Shown here piece after piece: positions 10,323 to 47,253 of a stretch of DNA of 64,000 nucleotides (positions are counted from its first letter, which is position 1; the number at the start of each line of letters is the position of its first letter). The position numbers and the translations under genes were made by a program. The notes under the pieces were generated by a model. The model was not told the origin of the DNA, made no database searches, and worked only from the letters and a program-made list of their open reading frames with translations. The stretch is from Leeuwenhoekiella polynyae (lineage in GTDB: Bacteria; Bacteroidota; Bacteroidia; Flavobacteriales; Flavobacteriaceae): assembly GCF_004104075.1 (NCBI RefSeq), contig NZ_QOVK01000014.1, forward strand, positions 1 through 64,000, read 5' to 3'.

Positions 10323-10328
10323 AAATAC

Positions 10329-12118: not shown

Positions 12119-12150
12119 ATAGAATACTTAATTCATTTTGTAGGGAGTTA

Positions 12151-12158: not shown

Positions 12159-12207
12159 AGGTGTAGAAAATCAAATGAAAACTAGTTTCTTTTGATTTCG
12201 GTTTTGA

Positions 12208-12276: not shown

Positions 12277-12304
12277 TGTGTAATTAGTAATTTTTAAAAA
12301 CCAA

Positions 12305-13900: not shown

Positions 13901-13919
13901 TATTAATACAAATATCATC

Positions 13920-13945
13920 GCTCCTCAATGATAGTATTGAGGAGT
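13920..13945 (+). other. Intra-operon hairpin between glpD and glpK
   Basis: CTCCTCAAT (13921-13929) pairs perfectly with ATTGAGGAG (13936-13944) around a six-base loop, with a possible extra G-U pair. It is followed only by TTTAAC, so it is a poor terminator. It may be an mRNA stability or processing element that changes the glpK to glpD ratio. Confidence 0.55.
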
Positions 13946-13967
13946 TTAACCTTAAAACTTATATATA

Positions 13968-26067: not shown

Positions 26068-26068
26068 T

Positions 26069-26725: not shown

Positions 26726-26727
26726 CC

Positions 26728-30247: not shown

Positions 30248-31159
30248 CTAATCTACCTTTACGGGATTTTCCTGTTTCAAAGGCATATAAATATCTGCTT
30301 TCCATTCCATAGCATTTCCGCCCATATTAGGGTTATTGAAAAATACTTCCAGAGGTTTGGGGTCGACTTCAATGTTATTTTGTTTCGCGTAAGCCAAAAG
30401 CGCGTACCAGGCACGATCTGAAGTGATGTAGTTGCCGTTATATACCGCGTGAATGGCATCTTTTGTAAACAAGCGTTTGTATTTAATTTCGTCAGTAATG
30501 GGCAGGTTTTCAGAGCGAATAATGGGAAAGCAAAAATTGTAAGAAATACTGTCTGTCTTTTGATTCCATTCGGTTACTTCTACAAATGGAGGGCCGTTCA
30601 TTTCAACATTGTTGCGCGTAAGAACGTCGCCTATATAACCGTAATTACGCATCATCCCTAAGGCTTTTGCTTCTTGCATACTTTTTAAGGAAATGTACGC
30701 ACAATAGGTAGAAGGTGTTTTTTCAATGCCCGTAACTTCTATTTTAATCTCTTTAAGATGCTGATTAAGTGTCTCGTAAAAATCCATTGCATTAGCAGTA
30801 CTTCGATCCTTAAAAAGTGTATTGGTAAAAGGCACTGTTAGCCGGTTTTTTAGGCTGTGCTCAGCGTCTTTGACGCCCACGCTTACTTTGGTGATCGAAT
30901 CATTAAGCGGATAAACGTTAAAGGAATACGTTACCGTTGAATCGCCAAATTGCCGCTCTTGAACAATAGCTGAGGTTCCGTGCTGCTCGGTAATGGTACT
31001 CGCGGTTAAATTGCTGTTCCAACTTTTTATAGATTGAACTATGGTACCCGGAGTTGTTTTTACTTTAAAGTTGATGATATAATCACTTGGCTTAATAAAC
31101 AAATACCAACCTGCGGCAATACACAATATTACACCAATGGCAAGAAGTCCTTTTTTCAT
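30248..31159 (-). CDS. Membrane-anchored protein with GyrI/AraC effector-binding-like domain
   Basis: 303 residues. A single N-terminal membrane helix (LLAIGVILCIAAGWYLFI) is followed by a beta-rich region to about residue 150. A C-terminal part (VEVTEWNQKTDSISYNFCFPI, HAVYNGNYITSDRAWYALLAYA, VFFNNPNMGG) resembles the GyrI-like/effector-binding fold. The N-terminal region may be an SRPBCC-like domain. It would face the periplasm or be anchored with the domain outside. It is 8 nt after the haloperoxidase-like gene and so probably in the same transcript. Small-molecule binding is plausible; no activity is assigned. Confidence 0.6.
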   Translation of the reverse strand: MKKGLLAIGVILCIAAGWYLFIKPSDYIINFKVKTTPGTIVQSIKSWNSNLTASTITEQHGTSAIVQERQFGDSTVTYSFNVYPLNDSITKVSVGVKDAEHSLKNRLTVPFTNTLFKDRSTANAMDFYETLNQHLKEIKIEVTGIEKTPSTYCAYISLKSMQEAKALGMMRNYGYIGDVLTRNNVEMNGPPFVEVTEWNQKTDSISYNFCFPIIRSENLPITDEIKYKRLFTKDAIHAVYNGNYITSDRAWYALLAYAKQNNIEVDPKPLEVFFNNPNMGGNAMEWKADIYMPLKQENPVKVD

Positions 31160-31167: not shown

Positions 31168-32517
31168 TTAATTTGAAGCTTGAGCGGTATTGTTTTTCAT
31201 GATAAGATTTTTAACCACAAACTGACCTAACTGACGACCTTGTTTTAAACCTTCGTCAATAGCGGCACGGTAATGAATACCCCCGTAAAGTCTGCTTAAA
31301 GCAGCTTCTGAAGATGCTTGTCTAAAGGAGTCAAAACTACGTATGGGAAGTCCGTATGCGGTTTCGGTATCATCGTCAAACTGAAAATTATCTCCGTAGA
31401 TTTGTGTAAGAACCTCGGCCGCTGCACCAGAAACTACAGAGTGGCCACTGCTGTACTCAGGAAAAGGAGGTGTTTGTAAAACAGGAGCCCAACTGTCATC
31501 TATATGCTGATTAATGAGTGTTTCGGGACGTATGAGGTTACTTCTGTACTTTTCATCCCAACAACTTATAAAGCCATCAAAAAGCGCGATAGAGGTCTTT
31601 GTGTATGCGTAAACAGTCTCCATCAAATCTGCATTGGCTTTTTTTGTGGCAATTTTTACAATCCCGACCCAGTGGCCACCTGGAGTAATCTTTTTTGTGG
31701 CAAACATTAAATGCCCCTTATGCGTAGAAACATACGGGTTACAATCCCAGAACTGAGCGATCGCCACTTTTTCTGAGTCGTCTCCTTCATCAGACATCTC
31801 ATTACGTACATTGTAAACTTCCATCAATTGCTTGTAAAATTCAGAGTCTTCTTCCATAGAAAATTCTGGTGGTGGAATGGGTTTAAATTGAGAAGCAGAG
31901 TCAATTACAAAGGTGCGAATCTTCATCCAATGCGGTTCTATTCCATCCATATAAGCAGGAGGAGTAGGTTGCCATCTTGAGGGATTGTCAGGATTTACCG
32001 AGAATTTAGGCATCGTACGCGTTTGCTTGTACATATCCCCATCCATCCAGCTTTTAATGTGATCAGCAACTTTTAAACCATAGTCTTTAGAAGCTGCTAA
32101 TTCTGTAGGATTCTGGTCTTCCCATTTCATATATAAACTGTCGCGCATCTCAGTAATTCGATCTTCAGAAAAAATAAGACTTTTTGCTATTTCCATTTGA
32201 GCAATCAATGCAGCGACATCATAATTCACAGATGCACCGGCATCAGGTTTAGGAGTTTCTTTTAAGTCTGTTAATTGACCGGCTAAAGTCACATAATCGG
32301 GGTTGTTTTGTGCTAAAACTTCGTACGCAGCAATATTAGAATAGGAGTAGATACGACTGGCAACAGGCGGTGAGAAAATATCGTGAATGATTACTTCGGT
32401 CACTTTATCTACCGCATTGTTGTAATCATCTGGTGTTACTTTAAGCGGTACTTCTTCTTTAGCACAAGAAGTAATTACCAGTGCGGCTATAAAAACTAAA
32501 CTTATTTTTTTAAACAT
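31168..32517 (-). CDS. Vanadium-dependent haloperoxidase-like lipoprotein (PAP2 superfamily)
   Basis: 449 residues, lipoprotein signal with Cys18 (ALVITSC). The vanadate/phosphate-binding set of the chloroperoxidase/PAP2 superfamily is in order: Lys323 and Arg330-Pro331 (KYRSNLIRP), Ser357-Gly358-His359 (YSSGHS), Arg409 and His415 (SRLYGGIH). Two positions differ from the textbook consensus: Ser rather than Pro before SGH, and no Asp four residues after His415 (Asp is at +6). It may be a haloperoxidase or an acid phosphatase. It follows three VCBS/ASPIC lipoprotein genes by 49 nt and likely belongs to that locus. Confidence 0.8.
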   Translation of the reverse strand: MFKKISLVFIAALVITSCAKEEVPLKVTPDDYNNAVDKVTEVIIHDIFSPPVASRIYSYSNIAAYEVLAQNNPDYVTLAGQLTDLKETPKPDAGASVNYDVAALIAQMEIAKSLIFSEDRITEMRDSLYMKWEDQNPTELAASKDYGLKVADHIKSWMDGDMYKQTRTMPKFSVNPDNPSRWQPTPPAYMDGIEPHWMKIRTFVIDSASQFKPIPPPEFSMEEDSEFYKQLMEVYNVRNEMSDEGDDSEKVAIAQFWDCNPYVSTHKGHLMFATKKITPGGHWVGIVKIATKKANADLMETVYAYTKTSIALFDGFISCWDEKYRSNLIRPETLINQHIDDSWAPVLQTPPFPEYSSGHSVVSGAAAEVLTQIYGDNFQFDDDTETAYGLPIRSFDSFRQASSEAALSRLYGGIHYRAAIDEGLKQGRQLGQFVVKNLIMKNNTAQASN

Positions 32518-32566
32518 AGTCCTAACTTAATTTAAGAAATGCATCATTAAAGATGAATGCTTGTTT

Positions 32567-35500
32567 TTAATTTTTCAGTTTATAAAGTTGGATGGCTGCG
32601 TCATTAGGTGTTGCAAGTAAATACTTTTGACCTTTTAATGAAAGAATATTTAAATGACGAATTGATTTTTGTGTGAAGTCTAAACCGATTTGATCCCCGG
32701 GAATAAACGTGTCAGCGTTTTTAATTAAAACTCCACCAAAGCTGTCTAATCTTCCGTGAAAGGGTTGAACGCCAAAATAGTTTCCTGCCGCGAGAACCTC
32801 ATCTCTACCGTCATTATCAAAGTCAAATTTACAAAAACTTAATATGGGAGCAACCTGAAAATCATAGCCTAACGGAACAAAGGTAAATTGCCCGTTATCA
32901 TTGCGCAAATACCCGGTTTTAAGCGTGTTTACTTCAAGTTTTTTACTTGTTTCTAATTGGTCTTCATTAAGAATTTCCTCAATGGTTTGACCGGCAAAAT
33001 CTTTATAGCTATGGTATTTTTTCTTGAAACTCACTACTTGTGAGGCTAAAGCGTCTAGTCCCATTAAGGGGTAGTATTTTCCGTTTTTTGCGGTAGTTAC
33101 AATAGTTTCTGTTTGCCCATTGTTGTCAAAATCATTGTAATAGAGCAACATCGGAACATCTGCAGAAGCTTTAAATTTACTGTTTTCGCCCCAATTACCT
33201 AATATATAATCGGTGTCGCCGTCGCCGTCAATATCAAACGGAATAATACCTTGCCAGAGTCCGTTCAATTTTTCGTTTATAACTTCAGTTCGGGTAAGTT
33301 TTCCATTTTCATTTTTAAGAAAAGTAGGCTCCATCCATTCACCCACTATAATAAGATCTTGTACGCCATCGCCACTAAAATCATCCCAAACGGCTGCAGT
33401 TACCATACCCAGGTCTTTAAATTCTTGCGCTACGCGGAAAGAACCCTTAGCATTCTCTAAAAGATAAGAAACCGGTATTTTACCAAAACTTCCTGTGATA
33501 CTTTGAGTTCCTGCAAAGACATCCAGATCGCCATCGTTATCATAATCATAGGCCGCTAATACCGAAGTATTGTCAAAAAGCTCTGGCATAGTTGACTTCT
33601 CAAAACCTTCTACTGTATTTAAATACAAACCATCTATTAAGGGTTTTGCTCTGTTAAAAAAGTCACCTCCCGCAGTACCGGTCATTAGATCATTTTTTCC
33701 ATTCTGATCAAAATCAGCTATAACTGCAGAAACCTCTTCATTAATAGAATCATTGACAATAGCCGGGTAACTAATGCGCTGATAGGTAGAATCTTTTTGT
33801 AGATAAATTTGAGAAGCGATGTATTTAGAACCCCCAAAGAATAAGTCTTCTTTGCCATCACCATCTATATCGCCTTGAGCAATTGCTGGTCCGCGATCAC
33901 CTATCTGATACGGAATTAATTTCTCCCGATCAAAGTCTGAATAGGCATCTTCTTTATGAACAAAGTCAAGGCCTAAGCTGTCTGTGACTGCTGTAAAAAG
34001 TATCTTTTTTCTTGGTTTGAGATTGCCAAAATTAAAGGGTTGAGTGTTTTCTTCCTTTATTGTCAACGTTTGATTGGCTTCAACATTAGTTAATTTTTGG
34101 CTGGTCTTATCTGGCCAAATAATGCGAATAGAATCTACTATTTTTTCCTGGGCTAACCCAAAATGAATTAATGGTTCTGAAGATGCCTGAAAACCTCTCA
34201 CCGTATAGAGTTCTTTAAACTGTTTTATTCCATTGGCATAGGCGTAGATTTTAGCACCAATGGCAAACTCATTTTTGCTTTTTGAAGTCAGTTTAATTTT
34301 AAGGTAGTTTGCTTTTTGATTAGTCTGGTTGATGTAAAAAGTAGGTGCAGCATTGATATTATTGGTCACCAAATCGAGGTCTCCGTCATTATCTAAATCT
34401 GCATAGGCTGTGGCTCCAGAAACGATGGTGTCATTTGCGATCCATTTACCGGACTGATCTTTAAAATTGAGATCTTCACTGCCTTCGTATACATAATTAT
34501 GAGTAGTTCCGCTAGGCATAAGATCTAAGGCTTTTTGATCTATAAGCGCTGTATTATTTATTTTATTTTGAATCTGGTCACTTGATACAAACTTTATATA
34601 ATCCAGATCATTGGGACGTTTTGGGATGCCATTTGAAATGAATAAATCTTGCTGCATATCTTGATTGTAATCGCCAAAAAGAGCACTCCAACTCCAGTCT
34701 GTAGCTGCAACGCCACTTAATAAAGCCGTCTCCTGATAGTTACCACCTTCGCGGTTAATAAATAGCATATTTCGGGTAAACTGGTAGTGATATCCGTAAC
34801 GGTCTGTGCGCAGGCGCTGTGTTTGTATATTGTCATCACCTTCAGATGCTTTTAAAACCTTCTCATCTTGTGGAAGCATATCTAACGAGATCAGATCTGG
34901 CCAACCGTCATGGTTTAAATCCGCAACATCACTACCCATAGAAAATCTGCTAGTATGCCCAAAATGCTTTTTCAATGCTTCGGTAAATGAACCGTCGCCA
35001 TTATTTAAGTAGTAATAATCATCTTCGTGAAAATCGTTACCAATGTAGATATCAGGATAACCATCTAGATTAAAATCTGATACTGCTATACCTAATCCAT
35101 AGCTGTTTATTCCGCCATAAATACCCGCTTCTTCGCTCACGTCTGTAAAATGATCTCCATCATTTCGCATCAGGCGGTCACCGGTTTGTGGATTGCGCTC
35201 GTATCGCAAATCTGCTTTCCCAAATGAACTCTGAGTATGTACCGCATGATTTAGAATATAGATATCTAGATCACCATCCAGGTCATAATCTAAAAAGGCT
35301 GCAGAAGAAGAAAAGGTATCCAGATCAAGACCATATTCTGAAGCTTTCTCAGTGAAAGTACCATCACCATTGTTTATAAAAAGTTCGTTGTAACCGTTCA
35401 GACCGTTAAGCCCTACAACGGCACAAACATATATATCCAGAAAGCCATCTCCGTTGATATCGCCCATTACAGCACCAGTATTCCAATCGCTATTTCCGGC

Positions 35501-35806
35501 AACACCGGCAGCTTCAGTGATATTCTCAAATTTTAGATTTCCTTTATTGAGGTAGAGTTCATTTTTTACCTGATTACCCGAAAAATACACATCTGGCAAT
35601 CCGTCGTTGTTGATGTCACCTATAGCTAGACCACCTCCGTTATAAAAATAGAGGTAATCTAAGATGTTCATATCTTCAGTCGCAGTAAGTGCATTCTGGA
35701 AGCTAACTCCGATTTTTTCAGTCTCAGGATTGGTAAATAATTCGGGCGCTTTAGAACACGAAAAAACGACAAAACCTAATACTATGAGTACAATAGCTTT
35801 ATTCAT
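32567..35806 (-). CDS. VCBS/FG-GAP repeat lipoprotein with ASPIC/UnbV domain (CRTAC1-like), paralog 3
   Basis: About 1,079 residues. I chose the ATG at 35806 because it gives a lipoprotein signal (MNKAIVLIVLGFVVFSC); the longer form adds ten residues. Calcium-binding DxDxDG-type loops recur through the protein (GDINNDGLPDVYF, DYDLDGDLDIYI, DLNHDGWPDLIS, DLDNDGDLDLV), indicating a beta-propeller. An ASPIC/UnbV domain lies near residues 515-585 (VRGFQASSEPLIHFG, DSIRIIWPD), then a second set of VCBS repeats runs to the C-terminus. Likely a surface-exposed binding lipoprotein. Its start overlaps the previous gene's stop by 8 nt. Ligand unknown. Confidence 0.85.
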   Translation of the reverse strand: MNKAIVLIVLGFVVFSCSKAPELFTNPETEKIGVSFQNALTATEDMNILDYLYFYNGGGLAIGDINNDGLPDVYFSGNQVKNELYLNKGNLKFENITEAAGVAGNSDWNTGAVMGDINGDGFLDIYVCAVVGLNGLNGYNELFINNGDGTFTEKASEYGLDLDTFSSSAAFLDYDLDGDLDIYILNHAVHTQSSFGKADLRYERNPQTGDRLMRNDGDHFTDVSEEAGIYGGINSYGLGIAVSDFNLDGYPDIYIGNDFHEDDYYYLNNGDGSFTEALKKHFGHTSRFSMGSDVADLNHDGWPDLISLDMLPQDEKVLKASEGDDNIQTQRLRTDRYGYHYQFTRNMLFINREGGNYQETALLSGVAATDWSWSALFGDYNQDMQQDLFISNGIPKRPNDLDYIKFVSSDQIQNKINNTALIDQKALDLMPSGTTHNYVYEGSEDLNFKDQSGKWIANDTIVSGATAYADLDNDGDLDLVTNNINAAPTFYINQTNQKANYLKIKLTSKSKNEFAIGAKIYAYANGIKQFKELYTVRGFQASSEPLIHFGLAQEKIVDSIRIIWPDKTSQKLTNVEANQTLTIKEENTQPFNFGNLKPRKKILFTAVTDSLGLDFVHKEDAYSDFDREKLIPYQIGDRGPAIAQGDIDGDGKEDLFFGGSKYIASQIYLQKDSTYQRISYPAIVNDSINEEVSAVIADFDQNGKNDLMTGTAGGDFFNRAKPLIDGLYLNTVEGFEKSTMPELFDNTSVLAAYDYDNDGDLDVFAGTQSITGSFGKIPVSYLLENAKGSFRVAQEFKDLGMVTAAVWDDFSGDGVQDLIIVGEWMEPTFLKNENGKLTRTEVINEKLNGLWQGIIPFDIDGDGDTDYILGNWGENSKFKASADVPMLLYYNDFDNNGQTETIVTTAKNGKYYPLMGLDALASQVVSFKKKYHSYKDFAGQTIEEILNEDQLETSKKLEVNTLKTGYLRNDNGQFTFVPLGYDFQVAPILSFCKFDFDNDGRDEVLAAGNYFGVQPFHGRLDSFGGVLIKNADTFIPGDQIGLDFTQKSIRHLNILSLKGQKYLLATPNDAAIQLYKLKN

Positions 35807-38800
35807 TAAGTGCAAATATCTTTGGTTTTTCATCATTTACAGAAGCGATAAGGTAAACATTTCCTTTATTGTCGCTAAACGTTGATAAGTGCTTGACTTC
35901 TCCTTTAATAAAGAATCCACTCTTATCATAATTCTGCCACTTGTAATTCGCATTACCTTCGTTAAGCAGTACATTGCCAAAACTGGCATCCAATTGTGAA
36001 TATTGTGGCTTAAACTCATAATTGTTACCCGCCATGATCAAATCTGCAAGCCCATCTTTATTGATATCAGCAGAAACTATATCGCAAACACAAGACAACT
36101 GCGTCTGGTAAGGAAGAGGTTTTAGACTAAAATTGCCTTTTCCATCATTAATGGCTAACATAGATTGAGAATATTTTACCGTTTTCTTGATCGCATTATT
36201 TAAGCTCTCTGTTGAAAAAATCTCGTCGATATATCTGCTGGCATAATCTGAAGCTTTTAAGTTCTGTTTTTTAAGTGAACTCATTTGTGCTGTGATTTCT
36301 TTCTTTTGATGTAAGGGGTAATCTTTACCATTTTTGTGCATCGTGGTGATTTGTTCAATCGTTCCGTTATTGTCAAAATCATTAATGTACATCGACATCG
36401 GGTTTTCTACCGTAGGTAAATAATGCAAGTTTTCTCCTTCGTTTCCTAAAACCAGATCCATATCGCCATCATTATCTATATCTACTGCAGTAATGGTATT
36501 CCACCAGCCGGTTTTGTCTCTCAGATTATTCTTTTTTAATGAAATTCTTCTGCCTGAATTTCTATAAATCAGAGGCGAACCCCATTCTGAAACGGTAATC
36601 AGGTCTTTTTTGTCGTCTCCGTCAACATCAAGCCAGATTGCATCGGTCACCATACCGGCATCTTTAGTGTCGTAAGCCAGACGTTCGGTGGCATCTACAA
36701 AAATGCCGTCTCCGGTATTTTCTAAAAATAATTGTGCAGGATCTATACCGTAAACCCCAACAACGCTGCGAGAACCAATAAAGACATCTGTATCGCCATC
36801 GCCATCAAAATCATAAGGAGCAACAACGCTCATATTTTGAAATGCTGACGGAAGCTCATTAGATGATTTGCTGAAGTTGCCTTTGCCGTCATTGAGATAC
36901 AAGCGCGGTCTTAGCAACTCTTTTTTGCCCACTTCATTACCTCCGGAAGCTACTAATAAGTCAAGATCCCCATCACCGTCTGCATCAAAGAATGCAGCTG
37001 CTGTATCTTCAAAATTAGCTTCATCTTCAAAGAGCGACTGATTTTTTGCATTTAGTTTTCCACCGCCTAGATGTAGATATAGTGTTCCCGCACTTCCACT
37101 GGGAGCTCCTACAAAAATATCTTCATTTCCGTCATTATTGACATCGCCTACAGCGATAGCCGGACCTTCCTGAGAAAGTTTTTTAGCAATTAGACCTTCG
37201 TAATCAAAGTCATTGTAGTTGTTTTCTTTGTTAGCTTTAAGCTTATCGTTATTAAGTTCGGTAAGCAATTGTGGACCTGTTTTTTGCTTCTGTGGAATAA
37301 ATACTTCAGTAGCCTTAGCCTGATCGAGATTTAAAGTTTGATTTGCAGCCACTTCTTTGAATACTTCAGTTTTATCATTGGGCCAAAGCACGCGTAATGA
37401 ATCTATGGTTTGCGTTTGTCCCAGACCTATAGTCATCTTATAATCCATAGAAGATTGAAAGCCTCGCACAGGATATAATTCCTGTAAAACTTCTTGCCCA
37501 TCAAAGTACAGACGTACTGAAGATCCCACTGCAAACGGATTCTTCTCACCACCTTTAAAAGTGATAGTTATATAATTGTTATCGGTTTGTTGTCTGCTCT
37601 CGTTACGGTATATAAATGCCTGCATATTCACATTATTCACCACAAGATCCAGATCGCCATCATTGTCCAGATCGCCATAAGCAGAACCGTTAGACATGCT
37701 GGGAATGTCTAACCCCCATTTTTTACCGGCATCTTCAAAAGTCAGATCTTTTTTGTTGCGGTAAACTGCGTTGGGTAACGGTTTTTTAGGCATTTTATTA
37801 ATGATAGAATCAATAACCTGGCGCTTACCCGTGAGTGCCATATTTTGAATAATCTCATTAGCGAAGAAGTCTACGAAATCCAAATCAGTAAGATCGTGAT
37901 TGATTCCATTTGTGACATAAATATCGCGGTAGCCGTCGTTGTCTAAATCAGCTAATAATCCCGCCCAACTCCAGTCTGTAGCGTCTATACCGCTGTAATA
38001 AGCAGTTTCTGTAAACGAACCGTTACCGTTATTTACCTGTAGGGTATTTTGAATAAATTGCTGATAGAAGTCTTTACTCTGCTTTAGTTTATAAACATTA
38101 TAACTGTCAAACTCCATCACAGATTTCACCCGTTCTTCAGGTTCGGGAAGCATATCGGTTATAAAAATATCTTGCAAACCATCGTTGTTGATGTCAGAAA
38201 TATCAACACCCATCGCGGAGAGAGAAAGGCGTGATGTCCAGTTTTTAATATCTTCTTTGAACGTCCCGTCTTGTTGATTGATATAAAGATAATCGCGCTC
38301 GTAGAAGTCATTTGAGATGTAGATATCTGGATAAAGATCATTGTTGATGTCTGTGATCATTACTCCGAGGCCAAAACCTATAAGGCTTCCGTAGATACCT
38401 GCTTCTTCACTTACATCTGTAAAAGTATCGCCATCATTCCGCATTAAAAGATCACCTACACCTTTAAAAATATCCGGAACATTTTCCCAGTTTTCTGCGC
38501 GAGTATCACGCTGTTCAGCATATCCCAACCCACTTACGGGCACATTACTGTTATTCAAAATATAGACATCAAGATCCCCATCTTTATCATAGTCAAAAAA
38601 GCTGGCCTGTGTAGAAAAACCAGATTTAGCCAGATTGTATTGCTTGGCTTTTTCGGTAAAAGTAAGATCCCCGTTATTGATATAAAGATCATTGTCGTGG
38701 TTGTCTCCTTTCATATTACCGGCATTACTTACATAAATATCCAGTAAGCCATCGGCATTCACATCTGCCATAACCACACCGGTAGACCAGGGTTTACTGC

Positions 38801-39149
38801 CGCCTACCCTGGCAGCTTCGGTAATGTCTTCAAACTCAAAATTACCTTTGTTGAGGTAGAGTTTATTCTTCCCCATATTTGCGGTTAGGTAAATGTCTGC
38901 AAGACCGTCATTATTAATATCACCTATAGCAACTCCACCACCATTGTAGAAATTTCGGTATTTAAAAATATTGAAATCTTTCTCATTTTTAATCGTATTG
39001 ACAAAGTCGATACCGGTTTCTTCAGTAGCCATCAGGCTAAAGAGTGTAGGTTCTTTGCTAGTGGTCTCTTTCTCTTCTGAACCTTTATCGCCACAAGCAA
39101 TAAGTATCAATACTAAGCTGAAAAAGTAAAGTTTATTAAGACTATTCAT
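35799..39149 (-). CDS. VCBS/FG-GAP repeat lipoprotein with ASPIC/UnbV domain (CRTAC1-like), paralog 2
   Basis: 1,116 residues, lipoprotein signal with Cys19 (VLILIAC). Same architecture as its neighbours: FYNGGGVAIGDINNDGLADIY near residue 68, repeated D-x-D/N-x-D-G loops (DYDKDGDLDVYI, DINNDLYPDIYI, DLDNDGDLDLVV), an ASPIC/UnbV domain around residues 535-605 (VRGFQSSMDYKMTIG, DSLRVLWPND), and a second VCBS half. The start overlaps the upstream paralog's stop by 1 nt (TGATG), and the end overlaps the downstream paralog by 8 nt, so the three should be made together. Sequence similarity among the three points to old tandem duplication. Confidence 0.85.
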   Translation of the reverse strand: MNSLNKLYFFSLVLILIACGDKGSEEKETTSKEPTLFSLMATEETGIDFVNTIKNEKDFNIFKYRNFYNGGGVAIGDINNDGLADIYLTANMGKNKLYLNKGNFEFEDITEAARVGGSKPWSTGVVMADVNADGLLDIYVSNAGNMKGDNHDNDLYINNGDLTFTEKAKQYNLAKSGFSTQASFFDYDKDGDLDVYILNNSNVPVSGLGYAEQRDTRAENWENVPDIFKGVGDLLMRNDGDTFTDVSEEAGIYGSLIGFGLGVMITDINNDLYPDIYISNDFYERDYLYINQQDGTFKEDIKNWTSRLSLSAMGVDISDINNDGLQDIFITDMLPEPEERVKSVMEFDSYNVYKLKQSKDFYQQFIQNTLQVNNGNGSFTETAYYSGIDATDWSWAGLLADLDNDGYRDIYVTNGINHDLTDLDFVDFFANEIIQNMALTGKRQVIDSIINKMPKKPLPNAVYRNKKDLTFEDAGKKWGLDIPSMSNGSAYGDLDNDGDLDLVVNNVNMQAFIYRNESRQQTDNNYITITFKGGEKNPFAVGSSVRLYFDGQEVLQELYPVRGFQSSMDYKMTIGLGQTQTIDSLRVLWPNDKTEVFKEVAANQTLNLDQAKATEVFIPQKQKTGPQLLTELNNDKLKANKENNYNDFDYEGLIAKKLSQEGPAIAVGDVNNDGNEDIFVGAPSGSAGTLYLHLGGGKLNAKNQSLFEDEANFEDTAAAFFDADGDGDLDLLVASGGNEVGKKELLRPRLYLNDGKGNFSKSSNELPSAFQNMSVVAPYDFDGDGDTDVFIGSRSVVGVYGIDPAQLFLENTGDGIFVDATERLAYDTKDAGMVTDAIWLDVDGDDKKDLITVSEWGSPLIYRNSGRRISLKKNNLRDKTGWWNTITAVDIDNDGDMDLVLGNEGENLHYLPTVENPMSMYINDFDNNGTIEQITTMHKNGKDYPLHQKKEITAQMSSLKKQNLKASDYASRYIDEIFSTESLNNAIKKTVKYSQSMLAINDGKGNFSLKPLPYQTQLSCVCDIVSADINKDGLADLIMAGNNYEFKPQYSQLDASFGNVLLNEGNANYKWQNYDKSGFFIKGEVKHLSTFSDNKGNVYLIASVNDEKPKIFALNE

Positions 39150-42100
39150 CAGTTATTCTCTTTTCTTAAAAATAGGGGTTTGTCATTATTACGACCTATA
39201 ATGTAATAGGGATTGTCTTTTATTTTTAGCGGTGCAATGCTGCGCACAGCTCCTTTAATATCAATTTTATGTTGTCCGGCGTACTTAAAATTATTACCGG
39301 TATTCAGAAGAAAAACACCGTGTGATGCATCTAACCTTCCCAACTGTGTGCTAATCTCACTGTCATTACCCAAAAGTAGCAGATCGTTTAAGCCATCTTC
39401 ATTAAAGTCTGTAGCGGTGATAACTTTAACCGTTGAAACTTGCGCCATAAATGGCAGGTGATGTGCTTTAAACTCTAAGTTACCTACGTTTTCAAAATAC
39501 GTACTTGCGAGTTTAAAAACTTGTTTTTTTTCAGCTTTTTCTAATTTTTCTTCTGAAAATAAATCGGTTATACTGGCTTGTGCAAATGCATGATAGCTTA
39601 AGAATTTCTTGTTTAAAAAGGGGAGCTGTTTAACCAGTTCATCTTTAGTTGCTAAAACCGTTTCTGAGCCTTTGTAATAATATGAAGTCACAGGATCAGT
39701 TTTACTATTAGCATCAAAATCAAAGCGATATAAATTAATAGGCTGCTCTAAAGAAGCCTTTAATCTTGTGTTTAAGCCCCAATTACCGGCAATCATATCT
39801 AAATCACCATCTTGATCAAAATCTTCAACCAGAATCGAGTTCCAGAGTCCATTTGTGTTTTTTAGACTTTCAATATTTTGTAATTCTAGTTTAGAACCCG
39901 AATTCATCAAAATTTGTATTGGCATCCAATGACCACAAACTATCGCATCAGGATATCCATTTACATCCAGATCTGCCCAAATAATATCTTTTACATTTCC
40001 TAGTGTCGCAAATTCTGGAGCATAGGTTGCTGTGATATTTTCAAACTTTCCTTTTCCGGAGTTTTTAAAAATATATTGTTTAGGAGTTGCTCCAAATTCA
40101 TGAGGAACTAAATCACTGGTAATCACTAAATCTAGTTTTCCGTCTTTATCAAGATCAACAGCTTTTATTTTTGACGCATTAAGTTCAATACCTTCAAAAG
40201 CATTATTTACTTTTTCAAAAGAACCTTTAGTGTTTAAGTAGAGTCGGGGAGTAAGGGCTTTACCATTTTTAAATTCGTTACCTCCGCTTGCTATAACAAT
40301 ATCAAGAGTTCCGTTATCGTCAGCATCAAAAAGCGCTGCTGCGGTGTCCTCATTTATAGCATCTTCATCAGCATCAGGAAGAAAGCTCTGGGTGAAATTT
40401 CCTGTTTTGTTCTGAAAGAATATCGTTGTTTTTTGAGCCTTAGCACCCAGAATTATAAAGTCATCTAAGCCATCATTATTCAAATCAGCAGTTTGAATTT
40501 GTGGGCCCGTATTAGTATTCGCATAGGGAACAAGGCCGTCTCTGCTAAACTCAATAGAATTTCCGTCTTTGTGGTTAAAATCTACCTGAAGAGAATCAAT
40601 AGTCCAATTGATTTCAGTTTCAGGATTTTTGATATTTTTTTCTTTTGATTCAGCATTGCTTTCAGATAAGACAAGATTTGAGTTTGTGTTTGTCAAAATC
40701 TGTTGTTTTCCTGATGGCCAAATCACTATAAGAGAATCTAATTGTTTAGCATCGCCCAGCCCCACAAAAACAGAGGGGGGTACAGCAGACATAAAACCTC
40801 GTGTGGTGTAATTTTCAAAAGCTTGTTTTCTATTATTTTGATAGGCGATGAGTTTTGCTCCAATGCCAAAAGTGTTTTTGTCTTCCCCTTTAAACTGAAT
40901 TTGAATGCCTTTCTGAGTTGATTCCTGAGCTGTTGTATTTTCAAGAATATAGGCTTCTTCATTTACGTTATTAACGACAATATCCAGATCCCCATCGTTA
41001 TCCAGATCAGCATAAGAAGCCCCGTTGCTAAAAGATGGTTTATTTGCCGTCCATAACTGGGTGACATCCTCAAAAGTACCGTCGCCATTATTTTTATACA
41101 TGTAGTTTGCTACATGAGTTTCCGGGAGTTTTTTGATGAATTCCATTTCTGTTTCAGACATGTTTTTGCCTAATCTTTTCTGAATAGACTCATTAGAAAT
41201 AAAATTCACAAAATCCATATCGTTGGTCGCGCCAAGAATTCCGTTTGCGATATAAATGTCTTTAAATCCATCGTTATCAAAATCAGCTATGAGTGGAGTC
41301 CAAGACCATTCAGTAGCGGCAATTCCACTTTGAAAAGCAGTTTCCGCGAAGCGACCATCACCTAAATTGAGCTGTAGCGTATTTTGCATAAACTGGTAAT
41401 CATAACCGTTACGCAACTGATTTTGGTAAATAGGGTAGGAATATTCATTCCCTGAAGCCTTGAGAACTTCCAGATTTTCAGGAAGCATATCGAGACTTAA
41501 AATATCTGTGTTTCCGTCGTTATTAATGTCAGCAATATCAGTTCCCATAGAAAAGTGTGAGGTGTGTCCTAAACTTTTTTCTGTGGTATTTAGCTCTGAA
41601 AATGTTCCGTCTTGATTATTAAGATAGAGGTAATCATTTTCAAAAAAATCATTGGCAATATATAAATCAGGATAGCTGTCATTGTTAATATCAGAGACTG
41701 AAACACCAAGGCCGTAGCCTATTTTACTGCTTAAAATACCTGCTTTTTCAGTGACATCTGTAAAATAACCGTTGTTGTTTTGGTACAATTTATCGCCAAG
41801 TAAACTATCTGCTTTTTTACGAACAGCAGCTTTACCATAATTGGCGTTGGGATGAACTGAATGATTGAGTAAATACATGTCGAGATCGCCATCTAAGTCA
41901 TAATCAAAGAAAGAAGCCTGAGTGGAAAGACCTGCATAATCCAGACCATATTCAGCAGCAGCTTCTTTAAATTTTGGAATGCCATTTTGCTCGCCAATAT
42001 TTATGTATAATTTGTTGTGCCCTTTAAGTTGTAAATGACCGCTTACTGTGCATACATAAATATCCAGTAGGCCATCTGCGTTGATGTCAATAACGGTGAC

Positions 42101-42442
42101 CCCTGTACTCCAACTTTTAGTTTCATGAATTCCGGAAGCTGAGGTAATGTCTTTAAATTTAAAATCACCTTCATTAAGGTATAACTTATCTGAAACTTGA
42201 TTTCCTGTAAAATAAAGATCAGGTAACCCATCATTATTGAAATCTGCAATAGCTGCACCACCACCATTGTAGAAGTAGAGGTAGTTGAGAATGTTGAGTT
42301 GAGGAGTGCTGGTTAATGTATTTTTAAAATCTACCCCAGAATCTGCAACATAAGCTAATTTATAGGGCTGACCTTCCTTTTCGCAAGAACAGCAAAAAGT
42401 ATAAATCAAAACGATTATAGTATAAAGATGTAATCGCGGCAT
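39149..42442 (-). CDS. VCBS/FG-GAP repeat lipoprotein with ASPIC/UnbV domain (CRTAC1-like), paralog 1
   Basis: 1,097 residues. The N-terminus (MPRLHLYTIIVLIYTFCCSC) has a lipobox-like FCCSC with a probable lipidated Cys20. FYNGGGAAIADFNNDGLPDLY begins the first propeller, with DYDLDGDLDMYL, DINNDSYPDLYI, DFDNDGFKDIYI and DLDNDGDLDIVV following. The ASPIC/UnbV domain lies about residues 520-590 (TRGFMSAVPPSVFVG, DSLIVIWPSG), with more VCBS repeats in the second half. It is the first of the trio, 92 nt after susD with a terminator-like hairpin in between. A role as a surface partner of the SusC/SusD transporter is inferred from position and lipidation. Confidence 0.85.
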   Translation of the reverse strand: MPRLHLYTIIVLIYTFCCSCEKEGQPYKLAYVADSGVDFKNTLTSTPQLNILNYLYFYNGGGAAIADFNNDGLPDLYFTGNQVSDKLYLNEGDFKFKDITSASGIHETKSWSTGVTVIDINADGLLDIYVCTVSGHLQLKGHNKLYINIGEQNGIPKFKEAAAEYGLDYAGLSTQASFFDYDLDGDLDMYLLNHSVHPNANYGKAAVRKKADSLLGDKLYQNNNGYFTDVTEKAGILSSKIGYGLGVSVSDINNDSYPDLYIANDFFENDYLYLNNQDGTFSELNTTEKSLGHTSHFSMGTDIADINNDGNTDILSLDMLPENLEVLKASGNEYSYPIYQNQLRNGYDYQFMQNTLQLNLGDGRFAETAFQSGIAATEWSWTPLIADFDNDGFKDIYIANGILGATNDMDFVNFISNESIQKRLGKNMSETEMEFIKKLPETHVANYMYKNNGDGTFEDVTQLWTANKPSFSNGASYADLDNDGDLDIVVNNVNEEAYILENTTAQESTQKGIQIQFKGEDKNTFGIGAKLIAYQNNRKQAFENYTTRGFMSAVPPSVFVGLGDAKQLDSLIVIWPSGKQQILTNTNSNLVLSESNAESKEKNIKNPETEINWTIDSLQVDFNHKDGNSIEFSRDGLVPYANTNTGPQIQTADLNNDGLDDFIILGAKAQKTTIFFQNKTGNFTQSFLPDADEDAINEDTAAALFDADDNGTLDIVIASGGNEFKNGKALTPRLYLNTKGSFEKVNNAFEGIELNASKIKAVDLDKDGKLDLVITSDLVPHEFGATPKQYIFKNSGKGKFENITATYAPEFATLGNVKDIIWADLDVNGYPDAIVCGHWMPIQILMNSGSKLELQNIESLKNTNGLWNSILVEDFDQDGDLDMIAGNWGLNTRLKASLEQPINLYRFDFDANSKTDPVTSYYYKGSETVLATKDELVKQLPFLNKKFLSYHAFAQASITDLFSEEKLEKAEKKQVFKLASTYFENVGNLEFKAHHLPFMAQVSTVKVITATDFNEDGLNDLLLLGNDSEISTQLGRLDASHGVFLLNTGNNFKYAGQHKIDIKGAVRSIAPLKIKDNPYYIIGRNNDKPLFLRKENN

Positions 42443-42480
42443 AGAGTAGGTTACAGTAGTTTTGGAAAGTTACTAATTTA

Positions 42481-42508
42481 AAAAGAGGACCATAAATGAT
42501 CCTCTTTT
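42481..42508 (-). terminator. Hairpin terminator/attenuator between susD and the VCBS genes
   Basis: AAAAGAGGA (42481-42489) pairs with TCCTCTTTT (42500-42508), continued inside by CAT/ATG after one mismatch. On the minus strand it is followed by TTTTT-type sequence. It would end some susCD transcripts before the VCBS genes, leaving the downstream genes at a lower level or on read-through. Confidence 0.65.
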
Positions 42509-42534
42509 CTATTATGGGTAACAAAATATAAGGA

Positions 42535-44136
42535 TTAATATCCAGGATTTTGAACAAGATTTGGATTTGATAATAAAGCAGTTTCTGGAATTGGGAACAG
42601 ATTAACGTTAGGGTCCCCGGAAACTTCTTTGAGCGCCCAAGGTGAAGTGAACTGATTAAAACGTACAAGATCATTTCTTCTCCAGGTTTCTATAAACAAC
42701 TCTCTGGCACGCTCATCTAATAAGGATGATTCGTCAAGACTTGTTAATGCAGGGGTGTTATCTCTACTAGATCTTAAAGTATTTACCATAGTTAAAGCCT
42801 CTGCAGTCTGCCCTTTTCTAAACATTGCTTCTGCTTTCATTAAGTAAGCATCAGCGTATCTAAAAAAGACTTGATGTCTTCTAAAAGATTCAATAAAAGG
42901 ACTTGTATCATCACCTGTATCGGGAATTGGATCATAAGGATGATATTTAATAAGTCGTATACCTTGTACCTCTGTATTACCTACCAAAGAGGGAATTTCT
43001 TTAGTAAAAGATAAAGGTCCGCCTTGTCTGTTTTTTAGCATAGAACCATCTGAGTCATATTGCTGTCCGATAAGGAATCCATAGCCTATTCCAAGATTAA
43101 GATCATTTGCATTGGTGTTATCCCACACAATACCTCTACGCTCTTCCTGACCGTCGCCTTCGTAATTTGTATTGGGATCACCTTCAAACTTGTCATAAAA
43201 CTCAGCAAGAGTAGAAAATCCATTCCAACCACCACCAGTATTATCGGGAGCATTTTGATTGTAATGTAGCGTATTCCAAATTCTTGGAGCAACTTCACTT
43301 CTTAAAAAGAAAATAGTTTCGGTATCTTCAGTGGGTTCAAAAATTTCAAAATAGCTTTTTTCAGACTCAATAGCAAATCCGCTTGCTGTAATAGCATCTA
43401 CAGCAGCAATAACTTTATCCATATCAGCGGAGTCAAATTCACCAGAACTACTATAAACAGAGGCATTTAAATATAACTTTGCCATTAAAAATTGAGCTGC
43501 TTCTTTAGTAGCTTTTACAGTTTTAGTTAAATCTGGTCCGGTAGATGGAAGATCAGGTAAGGCTTCTGTTAAATCTTGAAGTACAAAAGCATAGGCTTCT
43601 GGTCTTGTTAAAACTCTAGGGTTAACTTTAGGACCTTCGTCAACTTCTCTAAATGGAACAGAACCATAGAAATCCATAACAAAGAACATATTATATGCTC
43701 TTAAAAATTTTGCTTCAGCAATAATAGCAGGAGAAGGATTACTTTCTATAATTTCAGAAGCTCTAAAAATATTTTGGTTCAGAGTGTTCCAAGCATTTTT
43801 TATAAATAAATGTGCAGAATTCCAAGTATGTGTATGGAGTTGTCTCCACACCCCATTATCTCCCCAGTCAGTACCTCGAGTAGGCACTAAAAGTTCATCT
43901 GTAGTAACTTCATTAAGTGCATAGATATTATCTTGACCTTGAAAATCACCACCTATCTTGTTGTAGAGGTCACTTAGGGAAGATGCCGGATCTGCTAATG
44001 GCGAGAATGTAAAGTCGCCAGTATCTTTACTAATAATGGAATCGGTCTCCTCAATTTCTAAATCTGTACAGGATATCAAAGCACTAATAATAAGTGCTGA
44101 TAACGCAAAGGGTTTAATTATTGTTCTTATTTTCAT
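42535..44136 (-). CDS. SusD/RagB-family nutrient-binding lipoprotein
   Basis: 533 residues, lipoprotein signal with Cys23 (ALISC). The N-terminal part has the TPR-like helices of SusD (ARNLF-equivalent segments such as IIAEAKFLRAYNMFFVMDFYGSV and VLQDLTEALPDLPS). The C-terminal RagB part has FFRYADAYLMKAEAMFRKG and LDERARELFIETWRRNDLVRF, both strong family signatures. It caps the SusC channel on the cell surface and captures the ligand. It follows susC by 9 nt. The ligand class is unknown, because no carbohydrate-active enzyme accompanies it. Confidence 0.95.
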   Translation of the reverse strand: MKIRTIIKPFALSALIISALISCTDLEIEETDSIISKDTGDFTFSPLADPASSLSDLYNKIGGDFQGQDNIYALNEVTTDELLVPTRGTDWGDNGVWRQLHTHTWNSAHLFIKNAWNTLNQNIFRASEIIESNPSPAIIAEAKFLRAYNMFFVMDFYGSVPFREVDEGPKVNPRVLTRPEAYAFVLQDLTEALPDLPSTGPDLTKTVKATKEAAQFLMAKLYLNASVYSSSGEFDSADMDKVIAAVDAITASGFAIESEKSYFEIFEPTEDTETIFFLRSEVAPRIWNTLHYNQNAPDNTGGGWNGFSTLAEFYDKFEGDPNTNYEGDGQEERRGIVWDNTNANDLNLGIGYGFLIGQQYDSDGSMLKNRQGGPLSFTKEIPSLVGNTEVQGIRLIKYHPYDPIPDTGDDTSPFIESFRRHQVFFRYADAYLMKAEAMFRKGQTAEALTMVNTLRSSRDNTPALTSLDESSLLDERARELFIETWRRNDLVRFNQFTSPWALKEVSGDPNVNLFPIPETALLSNPNLVQNPGY

Positions 44137-44145
44137 ATCTATTTT

Positions 44146-47100
44146 TTAAAAAGTTAAGTTTACCCCAAGGCTATAAATCCTTGGTCTAGGGAATGATGTG
44201 TAATCAATACCTGCGATTGGTAATCCATTTAATAAATCACCACCTCCTGGTACAACACTAACTTCAGGGTCTAACCCGCTATAGCTTGTTAGGACAAATA
44301 AGTTTTGACCAGTTAAGTTAAAACGCATACTCTTAAAAAATCCTACGCCTTGAATAGGAACATTATAGGATAATGATGCTGTTTGTAATCTTAAGAAATC
44401 GCCTTTCTCTAAAAAACGTGTTGAAACTGATGCTTCAGCAAATCTACCTTCAACCCCTGCCAGATCAATAACATCGGTTGTAACATTGTTTCCACTACCA
44501 ATAGCTCCACCAGTAAAAAATGCGTTAGCGGTATTGTTATAGATGTAATTTCCGGCTTGTCCATTAAAGTATAATGAAGCACTCCAGTTTTTATAGCTGG
44601 CTGAGGTTGAAATACCTCCTGTGAAATCTGGCAAGGCACTTTTACCTACAAATTTTTGATTATCAACACCGCCTTCAAAGGTTGGGTTACCGTTAGCGTC
44701 AAATCCAATAAATTCTCTTAAGTAAAAGGAATAAATAGGTTGACCTGTCTGTAGTCTTTGTGCAAATGCCCCTGTAAGACCTGCACCGCGTATTGTTCCT
44801 GCAGCAATTCTTCCATCAAAATCTTGAATTTCATTTTTATTATAGGCAAGATTCACTCCAAAAGTCCAGTTAAAATCTTCTCCTTGAAGTATATCGTAAT
44901 TCAATGCGACTTCAAAACCAGTGTTTAATACAACAGCATCTAAATTTTGAAAGAAAAAGGGCTGTGGTGATGGTTGAGCAGCTTCAATATTTAACAATAA
45001 ATCACGGGTTTCTTTGCGATACACATCAAAACTACCACTAAAGCGGTCATTATCAAAGCCAAAGTCTAAACCGGCAGCGTATTGTGTAGTTTCTTCCCAT
45101 TTCAAGTCTGGATTAGCAAAGGCAACTGTTGTAATTCCCGGAATGTTAATAGCTCCGTCATCATTAATGCTACCATCAGAATACCGTTGTCTTCTCACAA
45201 ATTGACCATAACCTAGACCATCCTGATTACCTGTTATACCGTAGCTCAATCTTAGTTTAAGTGTTGAGAAGGTATCTCCAGCAAACGCTTCATTATTAAT
45301 TTTCCAGGCAAATGCAGCGGATGGAAAAATACCATACTGATTATTTCCACCAAATTTTGATGATCCATCAGCTCGTACGGTTGCTGTAAATAAGTATTTA
45401 TCTGCAATTGTATAATTAACACGAGCAAAATAGGATTGAAGCTCATCAGTATTATCAAATGTATTAGCGAATACTGATCGTAAAGGCAAGTTAGAAACCT
45501 CTCCCAATGATTCATTAGAAGGCTCGGGAAAGAGTCTGTTAACAAACAAACCTGTTCCAGCAGAGTAACCATATTGCTGATAACCCCCATTGATCAATGA
45601 CTCTAATCTGCCAACAGCATTATTAAGATCATCTGCCATTAGATCTAGATCTGTTGTTTGATAACCAAAGCCTTCAATATTTCTGCCCGAAGCTTGAAAT
45701 TGTTGGTAGGAGAACCCTATTAAACCATCAAACTTAGAATTTCCGAAATCTTTTTTATAATTAAGGGTTAACTCAAGCAGTCTATTATCATTATCAACCT
45801 CATTTAAAGCACCTCTACCATTACCGGCTGCACCCCGTGAAACGTTGAAAGAATTTGCATTCAATGATGCGTTTCTTGCTGAATTAGCAACGTCATATCC
45901 AAAAGTAGCCTTAGCTAAAATGTTATCTGTTATATCATAAGATCCCGATAGATTCAGTAAGAAACGATCTGTTTGAGCTAAACTCTGAAAATTCTGAATT
46001 AGATTTAAAGGGTTTATACGGTCTCCAGGATTAAATGTAGGGTCTGCAGGCCAAGTTGGGTTTGCAGAATATGCAGCACCTAAGAGATCTCCTGTAGAAC
46101 CAGCACTACCACTTAGTGGAGGAGCTTCATCATTTACCCGAGATAAAGTACTTTGAAGGGTAAGCAATAATTTGTCATCAAATAAGCGTTGTGAAGCATT
46201 TAGCCTACCTACTATACGCTCTTGAGAAGATTTATTTACAACCCCTTCTTGATTGCCATAATTGAAAGTTGCTCTAACATTACCAGAACCGTAGTTCTGA
46301 GAATAGGCAAAGTTTGTGTTAGTAGAAATTGTATTTCTTGTCACCAGTGATTGCCAGTCTGTGTCATTACCTAAGTCTCTCGCAGTACCTCCAAAGGCAG
46401 CAACCGTACTTAAAAATTGCTGGCGATTGAGTAAGTCATATTCATTTGCTGGGTTAGCAACACTAACTTCTGATGAAACTTCAAAAGTACCGCCACTTGC
46501 TCCCCCGCGACCACTTTTAGTCGTAATGATTACTACACCGTTTGCGCCACGAGATCCATAAATAGCAGTAGAAGAGGCATCCTTCAAAATACTAATATTT
46601 TCAATATCATTTGGGTTTAAGAAACTTAAAGGGTTTCTAGCTGCACTACTTCCTACCCCTATATCGGATCCTTCAGCAGAAGTGTCTCCAGATGGAAGGG
46701 GTACACCATCCACTACAAATAAAGGGTTGTTGTTTGACCTTACAGAAGATGTACCTCTAATGCGTATAGCAATTCCTGACCCTGGTTCACCACTACCCGA
46801 TGCAATTTGAACACCAGCGGTCTTACCTTGAATTAATTGTTCAGGAGAAGAGATTACCCCTTTTTGAAAATCTTCAGAAGTTACTGACGCAACCGAACCA
46901 GTAGCATCTTTTACTGTCGTAGATCCATAACCAATAACCACAACCTCTTCAAGAGCTGCAGCATCTTCTTCTAGGGTTACACTAATAGTAGATCTGCCAT
47001 TAACAGCAACCTCCTGTTGTGAAAATCCTACATAACTAAATACAAGTGTTGCATCTGAAGGAACGTTATTTAAGGTATAGTTACCATCAAAATCTGTTGT

Positions 47101-47253
47101 AGTGCCATTTGTGGTTCCTTTGACTAGAACGTTTGCGCCAGGCAATGGGCCATTGGGTTCTGATACTGTTCCGGATACTGTTTGTGCTTGCGCCATACCT
47201 GCCAGTAAGAGCGAAGCGAAAAACAACATACTTTTAAGTATTACATGCTTCAT
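44146..47253 (-). CDS. SusC/RagA-family TonB-linked outer-membrane transporter
   Basis: 1,035 residues from the ATG at 47253, which begins a good signal peptide (MKHVILKSMLFFASLLLAG, cleavage after AQAQ). Upstream in-frame codons would add about 50 non-signal residues. The layout is typical: carboxypeptidase-like domain (SGTVSEPNGPLPGANVLVKG), TonB-box region (EEVVVIGYGS), plug with PLFVVDGVP and DASSTAIYGSRGANGVVIITT, then the 22-strand barrel ending RPRIYSLGVNLTF. It imports a ligand across the outer membrane using TonB energy. It is first of the susC-susD unit, and its upstream region holds a promoter and several palindromes. Confidence 0.96.
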   Translation of the reverse strand: MKHVILKSMLFFASLLLAGMAQAQTVSGTVSEPNGPLPGANVLVKGTTNGTTTDFDGNYTLNNVPSDATLVFSYVGFSQQEVAVNGRSTISVTLEEDAAALEEVVVIGYGSTTVKDATGSVASVTSEDFQKGVISSPEQLIQGKTAGVQIASGSGEPGSGIAIRIRGTSSVRSNNNPLFVVDGVPLPSGDTSAEGSDIGVGSSAARNPLSFLNPNDIENISILKDASSTAIYGSRGANGVVIITTKSGRGGASGGTFEVSSEVSVANPANEYDLLNRQQFLSTVAAFGGTARDLGNDTDWQSLVTRNTISTNTNFAYSQNYGSGNVRATFNYGNQEGVVNKSSQERIVGRLNASQRLFDDKLLLTLQSTLSRVNDEAPPLSGSAGSTGDLLGAAYSANPTWPADPTFNPGDRINPLNLIQNFQSLAQTDRFLLNLSGSYDITDNILAKATFGYDVANSARNASLNANSFNVSRGAAGNGRGALNEVDNDNRLLELTLNYKKDFGNSKFDGLIGFSYQQFQASGRNIEGFGYQTTDLDLMADDLNNAVGRLESLINGGYQQYGYSAGTGLFVNRLFPEPSNESLGEVSNLPLRSVFANTFDNTDELQSYFARVNYTIADKYLFTATVRADGSSKFGGNNQYGIFPSAAFAWKINNEAFAGDTFSTLKLRLSYGITGNQDGLGYGQFVRRQRYSDGSINDDGAINIPGITTVAFANPDLKWEETTQYAAGLDFGFDNDRFSGSFDVYRKETRDLLLNIEAAQPSPQPFFFQNLDAVVLNTGFEVALNYDILQGEDFNWTFGVNLAYNKNEIQDFDGRIAAGTIRGAGLTGAFAQRLQTGQPIYSFYLREFIGFDANGNPTFEGGVDNQKFVGKSALPDFTGGISTSASYKNWSASLYFNGQAGNYIYNNTANAFFTGGAIGSGNNVTTDVIDLAGVEGRFAEASVSTRFLEKGDFLRLQTASLSYNVPIQGVGFFKSMRFNLTGQNLFVLTSYSGLDPEVSVVPGGGDLLNGLPIAGIDYTSFPRPRIYSLGVNLTF

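Follow-up and report, generated by a model that had tools for sequence, protein, structure and literature searches.

A conserved SusC/SusD locus of Leeuwenhoekiella polynyae with CRTAC1-like proteins and an ortholog of the Zobellia vanadium iodoperoxidase

What does a SusC/SusD pair serve when a vanadium haloperoxidase and three giant FG-GAP/ASPIC proteins hold the place of carbohydrate-active enzymes (CAZymes)? The question is raised by a block of seven genes in the window, a stretch of 64,000 nucleotides from Leeuwenhoekiella polynyae (contig NZ_QOVK01000014.1, positions 1 to 64,000). A first-pass annotation, made from the sequence alone, had claimed SusC, SusD, three VCBS/ASPIC giants, and a PAP2/haloperoxidase-like protein, and all of these were recovered on the minus strand with Pfam or NCBIfam support. 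Read from 47253 to 30248, the gene order is SusC, SusD, V1, V2, V3, VIPO (the vanadium iodoperoxidase ortholog), and EBD (a protein with an effector-binding domain), as follows.

44146..47253, minus strand: SusC/RagA-type TonB-dependent porter, 1035 residues (TIGR04056, 672.5 bits against a cut-off of 368.25; nearest solved chain 8aa4_A, 337.5 bits)
42535..44136, minus strand: SusD-type predicted lipoprotein, 533 residues (PF07980 and PF14322 above cut-off; nearest solved chain 3ck7, SusD, 87 bits over residues 74-533)
39149..42442, minus strand: V1, FG-GAP/ASPIC giant, 1097 residues (seven FG-GAP_3 stretches; UnbV_ASPIC, 59.1 bits)
35799..39149, minus strand: V2, FG-GAP/ASPIC giant, 1116 residues (eight FG-GAP_3 stretches; UnbV_ASPIC, 72.5 bits)
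32567..35836, minus strand: V3, FG-GAP/ASPIC giant, 1089 residues, or 1079 from ATG 35806 (seven FG-GAP_3 stretches; UnbV_ASPIC, 78.8 bits; match to 9etn, E 6.8e-14)
31168..32517, minus strand: VIPO, vanadium iodoperoxidase ortholog, 449 residues (PAP2 in Pfam; 703 bits to 4cit/4usz)
30248..31159, minus strand: EBD, N-terminal hydrophobic stretch and C-terminal GyrI-like/effector-binding domain, 303 residues (PF06445, 25.6 bits, just under the cut-off of 26)

The block shares the tandem SusC and SusD genes of polysaccharide utilization loci, and in relatives it is likewise accompanied by LacI-type regulators and sugar catabolism genes. However, it lacks a CAZyme within the cluster. As had been claimed, the region between 30248 and 47253 gave no match to a CAZyme, sulfatase, or peptidase family (Pfam/NCBIfam, E ≤ 0.001); GH65, GH32, and others lie near the block, outside these bounds. 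The start of SusC was taken as ATG 47253, the open reading frame itself opening upstream at 47406 with TTG. V1 and V2 overlap by 1 nucleotide, and V2 and V3 overlap by 8 nucleotides if V3 starts at ATG 35806, a start with which the protein lengths and overlaps reported earlier agree. Each V protein has a single central UnbV_ASPIC domain with FG-GAP_3 repeats on either side (Pfam). A family profile of 61 EBD orthologs matched 7zhd with an E value of 2.6e-8.

The block is a dedicated, conserved system. Homologues of VIPO (E ≤ 1e-50) were present in 134 of the 299 genomes sampled from the family Flavobacteriaceae, representing 105 of 203 genera. Of the 133 other genomes that gave a match, 91 contributed a locus to the comparison (11 chosen earlier and the 80 highest-scoring of the remainder), with genes labeled at phmmer scores above 60 bits. 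Lower-scoring family matches outside these 91 were represented only by 10 low-identity copies, matches at contig ends in three genomes (G093, G113, and G158) were left out, and for genome G036, which has two copies, L073 was used; its other copy (L078) has no V gene adjoining. The claim of a dedicated system had been said to fail if relatives rarely kept the neighborhood, and this was checked: all 12 other genomes of the genus retained SusC, SusD, and V directly before VIPO and EBD directly after it, and the order was preserved in most of the 91 family loci. A V gene lay directly upstream of VIPO in 74 of 91 loci, EBD directly downstream in 68 of 90, and both SusC and SusD upstream in 63 of 91; three V genes were found in 55 loci and two in 24. 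The first-pass annotation had named EBD but left its gene outside the coordinates it gave, although the counts place it in the block. Similar values were obtained for 80 named loci, the best 80 of at least 587 candidates with flanks of up to 10 kb, in which V was directly upstream in 72 of 80 and EBD was next in 71 of 79. Among the 10 low-identity copies of VIPO (41-47%), V was upstream in 5, and none had EBD.

Beyond the family, a vanadium haloperoxidase (VHPO) was detected at E ≤ 1e-25 in 79 of 392 genomes of a phylum sample. Of the 30 best-scoring of 64 out-of-family genomes (64 counted by hand), 17 had an ASPIC domain no more than 4 kb from the best VHPO, against about 0.25 expected, and 10 of 17 second VHPO copies (at least 40% identity) had one within that distance; both counts are among the ASPIC matches listed, which exclude low-scoring ones, so that observed and expected values may both be too low. 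Since the pairing of VHPO and ASPIC proteins is also seen outside the family, it is old, if not universal. Chance adjacency of the block genes was ruled out by the family-locus counts together with this out-of-family proximity. VHPOs, SusC/SusD pairs, and ASPIC proteins are individually of known kinds; no account of their conserved union was found in the literature searched, subscription papers being mostly outside its reach. The accessible parts of PMC10643221, PMC11871015, PMC13198595, and PMC12188728 do not describe a link between the three.

Two variants of gene arrangement were also observed. In L272, L273, and L274, a distant VHPO (41-42% identity) is followed by a shorter ASPIC-type protein of about 660 residues, giving the pair in reverse order. 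In 12 of the 91 family loci, mostly of the type that carries xylA and xylB, a conserved protein of about 200 residues with no Pfam match is encoded between two V genes (L072, 16001-16603, and similar loci).

The protein described earlier as haloperoxidase-like is a genuine vanadium-haloperoxidase ortholog. Residues 3-445 of VIPO matched the solved Zobellia enzyme (4cit/4usz) at 703 bits, and no other solved chain exceeded 28 bits. The 20 PDB matches at E ≤ 1 comprised 17 haloperoxidases or NapH relatives, with 4cit far the best, and 3 short spliceosome-type chains; among these 20, VHPOs and not acid phosphatases were nearest to VIPO. Residues K323, R330, S357, G358, H359, R409, and H415 were invariant in all 91 family orthologs, and the vanadate-site residues were likewise invariant in 10 of 10 low-identity homologues. 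We take these lysine, arginine, serine, glycine, histidine, arginine, and histidine residues, at positions read off the 4cit alignment, to be those that bind vanadate. Judged by its sequence, VIPO is an ortholog of the ZgVIPO-type vanadium iodoperoxidases with a complete vanadate site, and it would be expected to oxidize iodide.

The structure 4CIT/4USZ is reportedly that of the Zobellia galactanivorans vanadium iodoperoxidase of Fournier 2014. The VIPO of Zobellia uliginosa (L091) matched 4cit at 1023 bits over 450 residues with about 98% identity, as counted by hand on the printed alignment, and that of Zobellia russellii matched at 900 bits; the nearest relative of the window VIPO among the named loci listed, at 85%, is in a Leeuwenhoekiella metagenome-assembled genome (L080). 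Because the near-identical Z. uliginosa copy sits in the arrangement V1-V2-V3-VIPO-EBD, the crystallized enzyme type comes from this block. The window protein and the Z. galactanivorans enzyme share full-length homology and all vanadate-site residues, whereas an operon of the enzyme with SusC/SusD and CRTAC-like giants is not described in the literature searched. The part of PMC13198595 that was available places the Zobellia enzyme as a group-2 iodoperoxidase. The conserved block provides this characterized enzyme type with partners, a likely type of regulator, and a genetic handle.

These comparisons bear on whether VIPO is a surface phosphatase of the PAP2 superfamily that dephosphorylates a ligand ahead of import, which we consider very unlikely. 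VHPOs and PAP2 phosphatases share an active-site motif, VIPO has a PAP2 match in Pfam, and homologues of a calcineurin-like phosphoesterase (PF00149 in L109) were found within the flanks, of up to 10 kb, of 43 of the 80 best named loci and in 14 of the 91 family regions, which extend only a short way downstream. Set against this are the full-length orthology to a solved haloperoxidase and the invariant vanadate site, though such a site alone is compatible with phosphatase activity. On the orthology and the site, the phosphatase was rejected as the principal explanation. Given the 43 named loci with a phosphoesterase homologue, a link to phosphorus may nonetheless exist. The phosphoesterase is encoded repeatedly downstream of VIPO; in L109 (12275-16024), it is a protein of 1,249 residues whose C-terminal part resembles an outer-membrane barrel (ShlB just under cut-off).

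The surroundings of the block in relatives point to sugars. Genes xylA and xylB occurred together within or next to the operon in 27 of the 91 family loci, from 21 genera (those in which xylA adjoins VIPO, counted by hand), and a sodium symporter often accompanied them. The xylA products scored above the NCBIfam equivalog cut-off; those of xylB scored below it and are therefore called xylulokinase-like. Across the 91 loci, a symporter was found in 45, LacI in 31, LacI divergent beside SusC in 22, and GH65 in 13. The trio of LacI, beta-phosphoglucomutase, and GH65 was divergent beside SusC in several loci from other genera, L198, L219, L221, L229, and L245 among them. In the window, the same three genes are neighbors outside the operon, beyond a MarC-type gene.

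25021..29034, plus strand: LacI, beta-phosphoglucomutase, and GH65

A palindrome, CGAAAACGTTTTCG (at most 2 mismatches), preceded SusC in 28 of 51 readable loci, and 29 of its 65 sites fell within 23,460 of 1,858,241 bases. From its shape and place, this palindrome is a probable LacI-type operator. No sugar is named here, because GH65 and LacI point to alpha-glucosides and xylA and xylB to xylosides. In a further divergence, the sodium symporter beside xylA in L222 (7941-9527) differed from that in L238, though xylA, xylB, and the V genes of the two loci were mostly more than 90% identical at the DNA level.

The earlier proposal of a non-polysaccharide ligand, halogenated or phosphorylated, was not borne out by these relatives, with their xylA and xylB, symporter, LacI, LacI-type palindrome, and GH65/beta-phosphoglucomutase genes. 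It appears especially unlikely that the system is dedicated to taking up or processing a halogenated organic compound. Such a role would suit a haloperoxidase ortholog within the operon, and, in the part of PMC8490876 that was available, Zobellia is described as encountering organohalogens from algae and as having a haloacid dehalogenase; a knock-out mutant of Zobellia galactanivorans is described there too. The block contains no dehalogenase in the Pfam listing, and the sugar genes and LacI-type palindromes of relatives argue for another ligand; on these grounds an organohalogen was rejected as the principal reading.

Our preferred explanation, held tentatively and at somewhat less than an even chance, is a sugar-regulated SusC/SusD importer with a constant module of calcium propellers and iodoperoxidase that handles hydrogen peroxide and iodide at the importer. 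The operon, whose genes are probably co-transcribed, would be of the polysaccharide-utilization type, with its glycosidases replaced by the constant module of V1 to V3, VIPO, and EBD, the last as a protein with a small-molecule-binding domain. SusC and SusD would import a glycoside or a piece of glycan released elsewhere. VIPO would act on or just under the cell surface, converting iodide to hypoiodite with hydrogen peroxide from algal defense or photochemistry, and the likeliest benefit would be that peroxide and reactive halogen are cleared from the site of feeding. The V proteins may serve as a calcium-dependent scaffold or binding partner in a complex with these components. The conserved block suggests that surface feeding and iodine/peroxide chemistry are coupled in marine bacteria.

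V, VIPO, and SusD are predicted lipoproteins from their N-terminal sequences. By a rough pattern applied to longest-frame starts, a lipobox site was present in 61 of 91 VIPO, 47 of 91 V2, 43 of 73 V3, 25 of 61 V1, and 44 of 68 SusD homologues. By the same rough pattern, the residues past the lipobox cysteine were acidic in SusD and mixed in VIPO and the V proteins.

Several results weigh against a sugar-regulated importer with an iodoperoxidase module at the cell surface. The window locus itself has no xylA or xylB, no LacI adjoining SusC, and no palindrome before SusC, and the xylA of this genome is on another contig. In none of the 21 out-of-family genomes with xylA did this gene lie 50 kb or less from a listed VHPO, so that the linkage is seen only in this family; of the 27 xylA/xylB-linked loci, 21 had SusD and 25 a V gene. 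The enrichment of the palindrome is partly circular, since its consensus was derived from the same upstream regions. V did not adjoin VIPO in 17 of the 91 family loci, and 18 of 91 fetched regions, some of them cut, had neither SusC nor SusD. The latter include a Zobellia uliginosa locus (L070), while another genome of that genus (L200) has both genes. In the part of PMC9296495 that was available, Zobellia vIPO3, which may or may not be the gene of this block, was raised on Ascophyllum relative to alginate.

The solved relatives of the importer proteins add a further reservation. Among solved chains, the top match of SusC is named "SusC homolog" and that of SusD is named "SusD," both at low similarity; RagA ranks third for SusC, with 236 bits. 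RagA is a peptide porter. With RagA among the relatives of SusC, similarity alone therefore leaves the ligand unsettled.

The importer genes also evolve apart from the rest of the block. When the window was aligned with L060, a relative, the flanks were 94-96% identical, with 92-99% per 250-base bin of DNA, and identity fell to approximately 50-70% over one segment.

42603..46811, no strand assigned: SusC-barrel and SusD exchange block (from blastn and sliding identity with L060 as reference; comparable borders in the pairs L222/L238 and L219/L226)

Between the two loci, V1 to V3, VIPO, and EBD were 95.7-98.9% identical as proteins, SusD 53%, and SusC 61%. The first 100 residues of SusC were 98-100% identical and the next 50 were 80% identical; in three further locus pairs, two of them from other genera, the corresponding values were 94-100% and 86-92%. 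Borders were similar in L222/L238 and L219/L226, from two other genera, with weaker contrast in L219/L226, whose flanks are only about 75-85% alike. The converse was seen for L079, in which SusC was 77% and V2 62% identical to the window proteins. SusC was below 70% identity in 51 of the 76 locus pairs with V2 above 75%, many of these pairs being within one genus and hence non-independent. Thus, the SusC barrel and SusD form an exchangeable unit while the remainder of the locus stays constant, and the unit has similar borders in each of three genera.

Divergent SusC/SusD genes between closely related flanks are what is seen in allelic systems of the RagAB kind, and RagAB of Porphyromonas gingivalis occurs as distinct alleles according to the available part of PMC11817032. 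Both are SusC/SusD-type pairs in distinct allelic forms. However, here the distinct forms are found in different species and genera of marine bacteria, roughly the first 100 residues of SusC do not vary, and a haloperoxidase module lies downstream. The exchange may reflect escape from phage that use the porter as a receptor or a swap of specificity that leaves the remainder of the locus untouched. Because SusC and SusD are exchanged while the rest stays constant, they may be only loosely coupled to VIPO, which counts against an importer and iodoperoxidase acting together.

The V proteins resemble CRTAC1. A profile of 102 V proteins matched human CRTAC1 (9etn) with an E value of 1.3e-25, and V1 to V3 have the FG-GAP repeats and above-cut-off UnbV_ASPIC domain that define the CRTAC1/ASPIC-UnbV family. 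They share these elements with CRTAC1 but are about twice the length of its 586-residue chain, with repeats on both sides of the ASPIC domain. FG-GAP repeats of the calcium-loop type, of which the V proteins have many, would bind calcium. The FG-GAP/ASPIC lipoproteins of Bacteroidota, functionally blank, thereby gain a recurrent partner.

The calcium-loop repeats are also what would be expected if the block captured iodine, with VIPO making HOI or I2 at the surface and the V proteins and SusC/SusD binding and importing oxidized iodine or iodinated small molecules. Marine Flavobacteriaceae take up iodine in a manner that depends on calcium, glucose, oxygen, and peroxide, and on this reading the block would encode that uptake. 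Iodine uptake by Arenibacter C-21 requires glucose, O2, and Ca2+, a haloperoxidase having been proposed, and becomes independent of glucose when a system that generates H2O2 or oxidizes iodide is supplied (PMC5064120). The same paper lists five or more genes with homology to the Zobellia enzyme, and two Arenibacter loci (L135 and L141) carry SusD, V2, V3, VIPO, and EBD. These loci belong to genomes other than that of C-21, the top solved relatives of SusC and SusD are named for the Sus system, and iodine capture has no need of sugar regulators and xylose genes; we therefore regard it as unlikely. A wider version, in which iodoperoxidase, calcium propellers, and SusC/SusD form one peroxide- and calcium-dependent outer-membrane machine that captures oxidized iodine throughout the phylum during sugar feeding, with SusC barrel and SusD swappable, seems distinctly improbable. 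If true, it would account genetically for the accumulation of iodine by bacteria in coastal seas.

Some ASPIC domains elsewhere in the L. polynyae genome lie beside glycosidases. The genome has seven ASPIC domains in five loci. The second VHPO locus (L042, C6:15000-34900) contains, at 4824-15435, SusC, SusD, an FG-GAP/ASPIC V protein, a VHPO of a different type (VHPO2; DUF6851, VCPO_2nd, and PAP2), and a GH10 xylanase, and this arrangement was kept in two further members of the genus (L051 and L054). Of two other ASPIC loci, one has GH3, a SASA esterase, and GH31, and the other has GH2, GH97, and GH16. On a plasmid of Hymenobacter volaticus, a strain from air, beta-L-arabinofuranosidase, SusC, SusD, VCBS, hypothetical, VHPO, and GH3 genes were found (L294, 1-18390), the VHPO match spanning two annotated genes. 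On an Adhaeribacter plasmid, the VHPO lies in the vicinity of a TonB-dependent receptor and no VCBS gene is listed, and a Gemmatirosa plasmid has a VHPO match on a record without annotation.

The GH10 locus in this genome and in two genus members, the Hymenobacter locus with its beta-L-arabinofuranosidase and GH3, and the xylose genes in 27 family loci are consistent with oxidative attack, in which VIPO would make hypohalite that weakens cross-links, phenolic or otherwise, around a glycan of the xylan or pentosan type before SusC/SusD import it. Yet the linkage to GH10 was seen only in the genus, the two VHPO2 loci compared from other genera (L050 and L053) having neither V nor GH10 in their 20 kb. 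We also know of no substrate of the Zobellia enzyme besides halide, and oxidative attack is in our judgment rather improbable. The broader notion that VHPO loci with ASPIC proteins are xylan loci was weakened, GH10 being a neighbor only in the genus and xylA not near VHPO outside the family. At the edge of the window (569-9677), a cluster of glycosidases comprising GH3, two GH29-type fucosidases, GH35, and GH20 forms an ordinary glycan locus.

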